Shown here: positions 1,056-30,432 of the stretch, piece by piece | Numbering within the stretch: the first letter of the stretch is position 1 | How the letters are laid out: every line of letters begins with the position of its first letter | Source of the DNA: Blastocatellia bacterium | Lineage (GTDB): Bacteria > Acidobacteriota > Blastocatellia > Pyrinomonadales > Pyrinomonadaceae | DNA length: 37,463 bases | Direction of reading: 5' to 3' | Assembly (NCBI GenBank): GCA_013697915.1 | Contig: JACCVY010000101.1 | Coordinates: 1 to 37,463, forward strand | Position numbers and translations under genes: made by a program | Notes under the pieces: generated by a model | Database searches by the model: none | What the model saw: only the letters and a program-made list of their open reading frames with translations | What the model was told of the DNA's origin: nothing

Positions 1056-1213
1056 CACACCGCTTCCACTTCATCTGCGGGCAGCATGCACTATATGCGA
1101 GCCACTCAAAAGGCACCCAGTCCTCTAACCCCAGCAAATCAGCCGATCCGGGCTCCTTGCGTGCTGGGCATAGCGGTTGCCATTGTTCTCCAGTAAGGGA
1201 GAAACCTACGCAC

Positions 1214-1828
1214 ATGAAAAATTTTGGAAAAGGGATTAGCGGGGCTCTTTTGTCGCTCGCGTTTGTTTTTGGAATAGTTGCGGCCATGAGCAGTGCCGCT
1301 CAGGCCCAGAATCGCAATGATGATGACTACTATCAGCGTGGTAATAGCGACGGTGACTGGAAAGACCAGAAACGGGAATGGAAACGACGTCGCAAGCAGC
1401 AGCGTCGCGATGCCCGTCAGGGTAACAACCAGGGCGATTGGAGACGCGATCGCGACCAAGACCGCGACGATGACGTATACGATAACAACGGGCAGTACGG
1501 CAACAACGGCCGCTATGGCAATAACGGTGGCTATGGCAACAATGGTGGCTATGGCAATAACGGCCGCTACGATCAAGCGGAACTGAATCGTGGCTACCAG
1601 CAGGGCCTGCAGACCGGCGCGAGTGATGGCCAGCGCAATCAGAATTACGACCCACAGCGTTCGCGCTACTTTAGAAACGCTTCATCGCAAGCTTTTCGTC
1701 AGGGATTTGTGCGGGGCTATGACCAGGGATTTCGGCAATACTCTGGAAACAGAAACCAACGCAACCGTAGCAGCAACTCGGGCTGGGGAAACATTCTTGG
1801 CGGCATCATGGGCGGCCAGCGCCCTTAA
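1214..1828 (+). CDS. Secreted Gly/Asn/Tyr-repeat protein
   Basis: A 204-aa protein starting at ATG 1214, with an AAGGGAG ribosome-binding site at 1195-1201; an upstream in-frame start at 1157 has no such site. Residues 1-32 look like a cleavable signal peptide ending in AQAQ. The mature part has an Asp/Arg/Lys-rich charged region, then five tandem YGNNG-type pentapeptide units (DNA 1480-1570), then a Gln/Arg-rich tail with GYQQGLQTGASDG and GFVRGYDQGFRQY. The low-complexity, charged composition suggests an intrinsically disordered periplasmic or surface protein. Function is unknown. A hairpin repeat and a strong terminator follow. Confidence 0.8.
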   Translation: MKNFGKGISGALLSLAFVFGIVAAMSSAAQAQNRNDDDYYQRGNSDGDWKDQKREWKRRRKQQRRDARQGNNQGDWRRDRDQDRDDDVYDNNGQYGNNGRYGNNGGYGNNGGYGNNGRYDQAELNRGYQQGLQTGASDGQRNQNYDPQRSRYFRNASSQAFRQGFVRGYDQGFRQYSGNRNQRNRSSNSGWGNILGGIMGGQRP

Positions 1829-3294: not shown

Positions 3295-3810
3295 TTAGGA
3301 CTTAGCAGCGGCGCGGAAACCAATGGCTTTCTTTGTCGCAGGCGGAATAAGCATTAATTGACGTATCGCATCAAAAACTACTTTGAACTGTAGATCATAC
3401 TTGCTTTCCAGCTGCGCTAATTTTCCGGCAAGTTCTACGTTGGATGTGAGCATTCGGCGAAGCCTTACAAAGGTGCGCATGATCTCCACGTTAACCAGGA
3501 TAGCGCGCTTGCTTCGCAAGACGCTCGACAACATTGCTACACCCTGTTCGGTGAAAGCCGTAACGCGCTTTGGGTACTTTAGTCTTGAGGATGTCACAGT
3601 TTGTGATATCCGCAAAATCTCGTCTCTTGTAAGTTCAAACATGAAATCCTGGGGAAACCTTTCCCGATTACGACTTGCTGCTTGATTGAGAACCCTTGTC
3701 TCTACTCCATAAATCTTCGCCAAGTCACGATCGAGCATGACCCGTTCGCCGCGAATGATAAATATTGCTTTCTCAATTTGCACGACCCGCCTTGCAATCG
3801 ATTTGGTCAT
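3295..3810 (-). CDS. ORF6N-domain protein
   Basis: A 171-aa protein with a complete N-terminal ORF6N domain: IRGERVMLDRDLAKIYGVETRVLNQ (about 19-43), then NRERFPQDFMFELT and AFTEQGVAMLSSVLRSKRAI (about 48-105). These motifs define a putative DNA-binding domain found in phage antirepressors and in many stand-alone bacterial proteins. The C-terminal part (110-160) is helical, with a short coiled-coil-like stretch (VELAGKLAQLESKYDLQF). The length is normal for the family. It stands alone, with no phage genes nearby. It is likely a mobile or phage-derived regulator; its target is unknown. Confidence 0.85.
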   Translation of the reverse strand: MTKSIARRVVQIEKAIFIIRGERVMLDRDLAKIYGVETRVLNQAASRNRERFPQDFMFELTRDEILRISQTVTSSRLKYPKRVTAFTEQGVAMLSSVLRSKRAILVNVEIMRTFVRLRRMLTSNVELAGKLAQLESKYDLQFKVVFDAIRQLMLIPPATKKAIGFRAAAKS

Positions 3811-3970
3811 ATGAGGTTCGAGTACTTCTTAGATGGACTGCTGTAACTGAAATCGTGGCTAACAGAGCACGAATCGAAATCTTGCTACGGTCGATAACGC
3901 TGAGCAAGTTCAACCCGTTAATTCGCGATTTCAGTTTTATGCAAAGGGTTTGGCAAGATTCTTGTCGCCA

Positions 3971-30021: not shown

Positions 30022-30084
30022 CAGCGACGTTGCGGTCAGTGGAGGAACGCTTGTATGCCGGTTAGGATATCAAAGACGAAATAC

Positions 30085-30128
30085 AAAAGGAACGACGAGA
30101 TTCGCTTGAAGTGCTCGTCGTTCCTTTT
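30085..30128 (-). terminator. Strong hairpin terminator after the Lys/Gly-rich gene
   Basis: A perfect 15-bp stem (30085-30099 with 30114-30128) has a 14-nt loop. Its T-rich arm ends CCTTTT on the minus strand, 73 nt after the stop at 30201. The A-tract on the opposite side could allow termination in both directions. Confidence 0.75.
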
Positions 30129-30200
30129 GAAAGGCCCTGCTGGCCTGTTGAAGTTTGTGTGCGCCAGTTGGAGGTTGCTGTTCTACCGTCGAAGTCCGAA

Positions 30201-30296
30201 CTATCTCTTCTTGGCTGCCTTCTTGCCGCCCTTCTTCGAACCGCCCTTCTTGCCACCTTTTTTCGCTGACTTCTTTCCACCTTTTTTAGTTGCCAT
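30201..30296 (-). CDS. 31-aa Lys/Gly-rich basic miniprotein
   Basis: ATG 30296 to TAG 30201 encodes a protein with 14 Lys and 8 Gly among 31 residues in a KKGG/KKSA/KKAA repeat. AAGGAG lies 8 nt upstream, a consensus promoter about 110 bp upstream, and a 15-bp terminator downstream, so it looks like a real expressed gene. The composition resembles histone-H1-like or other nucleic-acid-binding tails of bacteria, but no family could be assigned. A longer 72-aa frame on the same strand (30062-30280) overlaps in another phase and has no comparable signals. Confidence 0.7.
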   Translation of the reverse strand: MATKKGGKKSAKKGGKKGGSKKGGKKAAKKR

Positions 30297-30403
30297 TCTG
30301 TTTGCTCCTTCGTTTCAAAATTTTTAGGGTTTAGGTCTTAACCACAAGATACTGTGCTTACTTCTCTCTTGTGGGCTAGAGTAAACGGCGCACAACATCT
30401 TGC

Positions 30404-30432
30404 TATATAAACGCAAACGCCCGCGATGTCAA
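30404..30432 (-). promoter_or_regulatory. Consensus promoter of the Lys/Gly-rich gene
   Basis: -35 TTGACA (30427-30432) and -10 TATATA (30404-30409) are separated by exactly 17 nt on the minus strand. Predicted start is near 30397, giving a leader of about 100 nt. Confidence 0.85.

Follow-up and report, generated by a model that had tools for sequence, protein, structure and literature searches.

A structured leader RNA joined to a histone H1-tail-like miniprotein gene in the class Blastocatellia

What is made, and to what end, from a very short gene that is surrounded by unusually strong expression signals? The question is raised by a locus in a stretch of 37,463 nucleotides (hereafter the window) on contig JACCVY010000101.1 of a Blastocatellia bacterium. 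The initial annotation proposed a Lys/Gly-rich protein of 31 residues, mostly KKGG repeats, that would bind nucleic acids or polyphosphate, or else a regulatory RNA that also encodes it. The open reading frame (ORF) was confirmed as MATKKGGKKSAKKGGKKGGSKKGGKKAAKKR, with 14 lysines among its 31 residues and low complexity throughout. The gene and all its signals lie on the minus strand of the window (Table 1); in transcript order it follows pilus-type genes and precedes trmL and typA, all of them on that same strand. The proposed AAGGAG was found ahead of the start codon and a leader of roughly 100 nt is indeed present (99 nt were folded in the stability test below). The promoter had been called a perfect TTGACA-17-TATATA, a description that holds for the -35 box but not for the -10 box, as TATATA matches TATAAT at four of six positions; a consensus scan missed this promoter because the final T of TATAAT is lacking. 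The terminator escaped the same scan because its loop is too long; the hairpin exists, with a stem of 16 bp instead of the announced 15. The whole transcript is only moderately more stable than its shuffles (z = -2.54) and the 99-nt leader alone is indistinguishable from them (z = -0.14), so that the case for RNA structure rests on comparison rather than on folding energy.

Table 1 Features of the miniprotein locus, in window coordinates; A3 is the leader alignment described in the text
Feature	Position	Strand	Basis
-35/-10 promoter, TTGACA (30432-30427), 17-nt spacer, TATATA (30409-30404), with an AT-rich stretch 5' of it	30404..30432	minus	sequence; TTGACA conservation in loci
S1 5' arm, AUGUUGUG, A3 columns 12-19	30391..30398	minus	alignment, pairing statistics
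S3 5' arm, UGCGCC, two-base overlap with S1	30387..30392	minus	Pyrinomonadaceae comparison
S2 5' arm, core CCACAAG, A3 columns 35-42	30368..30375	minus	alignment, pairing statistics
S1 3' arm, CACAGUAU, A3 columns 54-61	30349..30356	minus	alignment, pairing statistics
S2 3' arm, core CUUGUGG, A3 columns 62-69, adjoining the S1 3' arm	30341..30348	minus	alignment, pairing statistics
Shine-Dalgarno AAGGAG	30305..30310	minus	sequence
ORF, 31 aa, stop included; ATG at 30296, TAG at 30203-30201	30201..30296	minus	translation; pN/pS 0.15 in genus
3'-UTR motif GGCGCACAC, with GGCGCA as S3 3' arm	30157..30165	minus	Pyrinomonadaceae comparison
Terminator hairpin, 16 bp (30129-30114 with 30099-30084), 3' arm T-rich	30084..30129	minus	fold (z = -8.0); covarying stem in relatives

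To see how widely the element is spread, 162 genomes of Blastocatellia, a class of the Acidobacteriota, were studied. A protein search with the 31-residue query in 59 genomes, its own included (E up to 1), gave matches in 15 genomes at 16 places: the window's copy (L001), 13 true relatives (L002-L013 and L015) and two chance matches (L014 and L016) that were dropped after inspection of their loci. Promoter, leader, start, stop and terminator are all alignable among the true relatives. A covariance model of the promoter and leader (R1, 14 sequences) retrieved 74 places in 72 of the 162 class genomes, and a second model built from 60 sequences across families (R2) retrieved 83 places in 80 of them, normally one per genome. 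When R2 was run on 396 genomes sampled across the phylum, every one of its 21 matches fell in Blastocatellia. The leader was also written as an exact IUPAC pattern, which by its exactness misses divergent copies. Scanned over 84,980 species genomes, this pattern found 60 stretches, 57 of them from Acidobacteria or members of this group; two further ones (HRbin10 and an 'Actinomycetota' bin) were taken as class genomes (G068 and G063), and a 'Bacillota' match (L124) with no basic ORF was set aside as chance. The cultured Pyrinomonas methylaliphatogenes K22 (NZ_CBXV010000002.1, L147) is among the carriers. In the 73 loci whose upstream DNA reaches far enough, the -35 box is TTGACA in 71 and TTGACT in the remaining two, the -10 box starts with TATA in 71, and the DNA just 5' of the promoter exceeds the background AT content in 72; as judged from these counts, the promoter is conserved more than chance would allow. 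The best explanation seems to be that this single-gene unit was ancestral in the class.

By the initial annotation, loss of the frame in relatives that keep the RNA would speak against its proposal. This did not prove to be the case: at the 83 R2 places, a basic low-complexity ORF follows the leader in 82, the remaining one being cut by the end of its contig. A simple rule (a Shine-Dalgarno sequence and an ATG soon after the leader) found whole ORFs at 71 of the 74 R1 places. Four loci depart from the common picture: in L038 a Lys/Gly-rich ORF runs off the contig, in L063 the contig ends right after the leader, in L085 an ORF of 16 residues, MATKKKAAKKTAKKKR, lies farther downstream, and in L029 the sequence is broken by a stretch of N. 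All nine extra R2 places have a basic ORF, that of G054 being less Lys-rich. Three genomes carry a second, diverged leader, each ahead of a basic ORF, with KLPKLTKIPP repeats in G100 (L089), related repeats in G144 (L077) and a 31-residue Lys-rich product in G043 (L162). Even a duplicated leader is thus accompanied by a basic ORF, which ties the leader to the polycation.

Within the genus of the window, the comparison of synonymous and non-synonymous changes recommended in the initial annotation gave a pooled pN/pS of 0.150 (15 sequences, 105 pairs that are not independent), with 199, 224 and 837 differences at the three codon positions; by this measure the ORF is under purifying selection. 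Across loci, however, the sequence moves from KKGG to KKAAPAKK repeats and the length varies between 16 and 168 aa; the repeat type follows the family: KKGG in the Pyrinomonadaceae, which is the family of the window, AKKGGAKK in f2, PAKKAAPAKK in f6 and long H1-tail-like sequences of 125-168 residues in f3. The 71 whole ORFs measure 22-168 residues with a median Lys fraction of 0.39, and Asp and Glu are absent from 64 of them, while the four ORFs of f3 carry 1 to 21 such residues. Between families, only composition is conserved. What the comparison shows is that the gene encodes a polycation of low complexity, made of Lys plus Ala, Gly, Ser, Thr or Pro and selected for charge and composition, not for sequence or length. 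As composition alone is conserved, similarity searches miss this protein family: Pfam gave no family match for the window protein and seven relatives, apart from two weak unrelated ones, and nothing in Pfam or NCBIfam reached the cut-off for the protein; NF038053, whose cut-off is 80 bits, scored 11.9 and 12.3 bits with two long relatives.

In alignments across families, the leader varies less than the protein. Its structure was studied in an alignment (A3) of 70 rows, 64 of them distinct, that covers 70 of the 74 loci and leaves out two truncated or deleted leaders and two second copies (L063, L076, L077 and L089); a further alignment (A4) holds 60 of these rows. Columns 12-70 of A3 are gap-free and contain two helices, S1, in which AUGUUGUG pairs with CACAGYAU, and S2, in which CCACAAG pairs with CUUGUGG. 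Taken together, S1 and S2 are paired in 91.9% of cells; the figure is 88.2% for shuffles and does not exceed 55.4% if the arms are slid. Their double-changed cells number 34, compared with 14.0 for shuffles. Double changes occur in seven of the 16 pairs, a number that 26 of 500 shuffles reach; another seven pairs are invariant and hence uninformative. The two helices are unequally supported. S2 alone has 20 double-changed cells against 6.3, with four invariant pairs, whereas S1 alone has 14 against 7.5 and its three double-changed pairs are no more than in shuffles; two inner S1 pairs are unpaired in 15 and 18 of the 64 rows, and a standing U-G pair is seen in 45. Compensatory changes include the outer S2 pair, which goes from C-G to A-U in f2, and a G-C pair (columns 42 and 62) that becomes U-A in two rows of f4. 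Mismatches are of the G-U kind in 107 cases and of the mirror A-C kind in 14, an asymmetry expected of sense-strand RNA. Unaided, RNAalifold recovers S2 only; single-sequence folds give a 15-bp S1 in L086 of f3 (z = -7.7), S2 in L062 of f2 and an extended S1 in the window leader. This extension (CAAG with CUUG) was not counted, as all four bases occur among relatives at column 11 of A3. On these comparative grounds the leader is shown to carry two predicted helices, for which both the compensatory changes and the strand-specific G-U pairs speak. The helices may be mutually exclusive or may together make a pseudoknot; loops of 15, 11 and 0 nt would allow the latter, in which the 3' arms of both helices would stack into a single strand, an argument of geometry and not a computed model. 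From the distance to the -10 box, transcription likely starts at or a few nucleotides from the S1 5' arm.

In the Pyrinomonadaceae a third pairing, S3, joins the leader to the 3' UTR, where GGCGCA, complementary to UGCGCC of the leader, typically stands about 40 nt after the stop codon. A count anchored on CGCA covered 40 of 42 loci (L029 and L076 were missed): columns 18-21 pair in all 40 and columns 22 and 23 in 38 each, the column-22 failures (L051 and L058) being due to an anchor on the wrong CGCA. Compensatory changes are found in G019 (GCGUU with AACGC) and in genus g20 (GCGCU with AGCGC). Because S3 overlaps S1 by two bases, the two may compete. A search for S3 outside this family found nothing consistent above chance. 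Two observations concern the same region. The leader of L076 (G149, minus strand) has a deletion of about 23 nt that removes the -10 box and the S1 5' arm, and in its 3'-UTR motif GGCGUA has replaced GGCGCA, as though the partner of S3 were gone, although an assembly error is possible. In f2, AAAACGGGGGTTCTCTGTGTGAGAAC is identical in all seven loci (L060, L061, L062, L069, L070, L072 and L073), in the gap between ORF and terminator, and is another conserved 3'-UTR hairpin.

The search for relatives in the same position, also recommended in the initial annotation, had an outcome that depends on the family. With second copies left out, a pilus-type gene stands upstream in 43 of the 44 Pyrinomonadaceae loci and TrmL downstream in 40 of them, within the DNA examined; outside this family none of these neighbours was seen in 28 loci, and the neighbours vary by family without giving a functional clue. 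Elsewhere in the window (1157..1828, plus strand) lies an ORF that contains YGNNGG repeats and may encode a signal sequence, and the GGYYGN repeats of an ORF 5' of the element in L078 are similar to them. Twelve leaderless Pyrinomonadaceae genomes were examined out of the 82 class genomes that have no match. In a TrmL tree, 11 of these 12 stand apart from a group of 41 rows (support 92/93, not starred) made up of all 40 leader-bearing rows and G011, which suggests a single loss in a subclade, as far as 12 of the 82 leaderless genomes can tell. The contig of G011 ends 282 nt before TrmL, inside a tandem repeat; this repeat of about 65-70 nt (L172, first 282 nt, reverse strand) is directly upstream of TrmL and occupies the place of the Lys-rich gene in relatives. 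Judging from this subclade and from other class genomes that are without it, the element is not essential to all. A search for Hfq gave a separate observation: all 39 leader-bearing Pyrinomonadaceae genomes with a match score E = 1.7e-24 or better, and 67 of the 71 leader-lacking genomes with a match fall short of this score, their reading frames often being shorter; the exceptions are the drafts G011, G088, G096 and G146. This association could be a lead for a partner, and it is likely confounded by phylogeny.

Is any part of this unit known? On the element itself, an Rfam search that admitted E values up to 10 gave a single match, of the staphylococcal sRNA sau-5971 to the terminator hairpin, which was put down to chance, and no family, 6S RNA included, matched it at gathering score; the three matches at that score among 18 class loci are all away from the element. 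An identity with 6S RNA was rejected, since RF00013 matches another contig (C209; 46.3 bits, cut-off 46.4). Two matches of Acido-Lenti-1 RNA stand on opposite strands of L078, separated by about 95 nt (3743-3789, minus, and 3884-3930, plus). In being short, conserved and placed before one type of gene, and in its two interlocking helices, the 5' leader recalls bacterial pseudoknot leaders and riboswitches; the element has the covariation-backed structure tied to one gene type that is expected of a cis-regulatory leader, but it matches none of those in Rfam. The protein, for its part, is Lys-rich, of low complexity and variable in length through its repeats, like the chlamydial Hc1/Hc2 and the Burkholderia-type NF038053, but none of eight proteins has a Pfam match and the NF038053 scores remain far below the curated cut-off (about 12 bits against 80). 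It also resembles the C-terminal KPAA tails of AlgP and PhaF, which are Lys/Ala/Pro-rich, disordered, repetitive and H1-tail-like, with variable repeats (PMC9239181). In Pseudomonas AlgP, a helical N-terminal domain of 124 residues precedes this DNA-binding KPAA-rich tail; the window protein has no such domain, being a tail of only 31 residues, with KKGG in its family in place of KPAA, and the passages on AlgP do not mention a leader RNA (PMC9239181). A literature search, from which subscription journals were mostly absent, found no description of the gene or of its leader. The leader is a new structured element, joined to an H1-tail-like miniprotein, and both alternatives of the initial annotation hold in part: there is a coding gene and there is a conserved structured leader RNA.

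The reading that we favor, with a probability of roughly 0.58, is that the product of the gene is a disordered polycation present in abundance, that it condenses nucleic acid, and that the new leader, acting in cis, sets its dose. The near-invariant promoter of sigma-70 type, strong by its signals, would produce a short and discretely terminated mRNA. As the comparison shows, its first 58 nt or so hold S1 and S2 with their abutting 3' arms, either as a pseudoknot or as two alternative states; in the Pyrinomonadaceae the 3'-UTR motif could pair with the same 5' segment. The sequence downstream encodes the low-complexity polycation, which would condense or neutralise DNA, RNA or both in the manner of a free histone-H1 tail, while the leader would set its dose through mRNA stability or translation. 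Both the nucleic-acid binding and the abundance are inferred. Since the leader is nearly constant and the protein free to change, recognition of the leader by some conserved component of the cell is more likely than a specific contact with the protein; the ribosome, a nuclease, an RNA chaperone or a small molecule would be candidates. Several points count against this explanation: the acidic residues of the f3 proteins, the weaker support for S1, the seven invariant pairs, the recovery of S2 only by RNAalifold, the differing single-sequence folds of the families, and the lack of the element in a subclade of the Pyrinomonadaceae and in other class genomes.

Several other scenarios may be considered. 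In one, what matters most is the transcript itself, which at about 310 nt would act in trans throughout the class as a regulatory or structural RNA, with the ORF as a secondary part of a dual-function molecule. The leader is indeed better conserved than the ORF, promoter and terminator are strong, and pieces of the 3' UTR are conserved within families. Nevertheless, the near-universal retention of the ORF, the purifying selection on it, the basic ORFs behind second leaders and an ORF region that is not conserved as RNA, ranging from 16 to 168 codons, make this scenario improbable. Alternatively, the leader could be a riboswitch-like element in which S1, joined in the Pyrinomonadaceae by S3, competes with S2 or locks it, so as to sense the free polycation or polyanion state and titrate a counter-ion protein defined by composition only; polyamines, Mg2+, a nucleotide alarmone or the encoded peptide could be the signal. 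We regard this as a tentative and rather unlikely idea. If it were true, feedback would respond to charge and not to any particular fold, and would have been kept class-wide.

It could also be that the peptide organises polyphosphate or PHA granules, like the tails of AlgP and PhaF. AlgP, with its KPAA-rich tail, localises to polyphosphate granules and is needed for their spacing (PMC9239181). The window's genome has Ppk1, along with two matches of the HU family, and 51 of the 80 leader genomes have a Ppk1 match. Yet the other 29, of which 15 are at least 95% complete, have no PF02503 (Ppk1) match, among them the Chloracidobacterium-like genus and three further families; furthermore, the window protein is a tail without a granule-binding domain. 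The polyphosphate target named at the outset is thus less supported, polyphosphate as sole target is unlikely, and a granule organiser seems quite doubtful. Small basic proteins such as bTHX, bS22 and bL37 belong to the ribosome or associate with it, and the size, charge and strong expression signals of the peptide would fit such a role; a length of 16 to 168 residues and a complete drift of the repeats, in place of a fixed length and sequence, do not fit a fixed rRNA site, and no protein family matches, so this role is very unlikely. An operator in the DNA, bound by a dimeric regulator, is an equally unlikely account of the leader repeats, which would then not be RNA helices. Inverted repeats just 3' of the promoter and four invariant S2 pairs would suit one, but DNA symmetry does not predict that tolerated mismatches are so often sense-strand G-U and so rarely A-C, nor the standing U-G pair of S1.

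H1-tail-like proteins recur in bacteria and, to our knowledge, little is known about their control. The locus described here is a class-wide single-gene unit in which an H1-like tail at its bare minimum, down to 16 residues, is combined with a structured leader, and it is an example of a protein family that is invisible to similarity search. With one promoter, one leader, one mini-polycation and one terminator, and with a cultured member, the unit would offer a clean system in which to study how a polycation is dosed.
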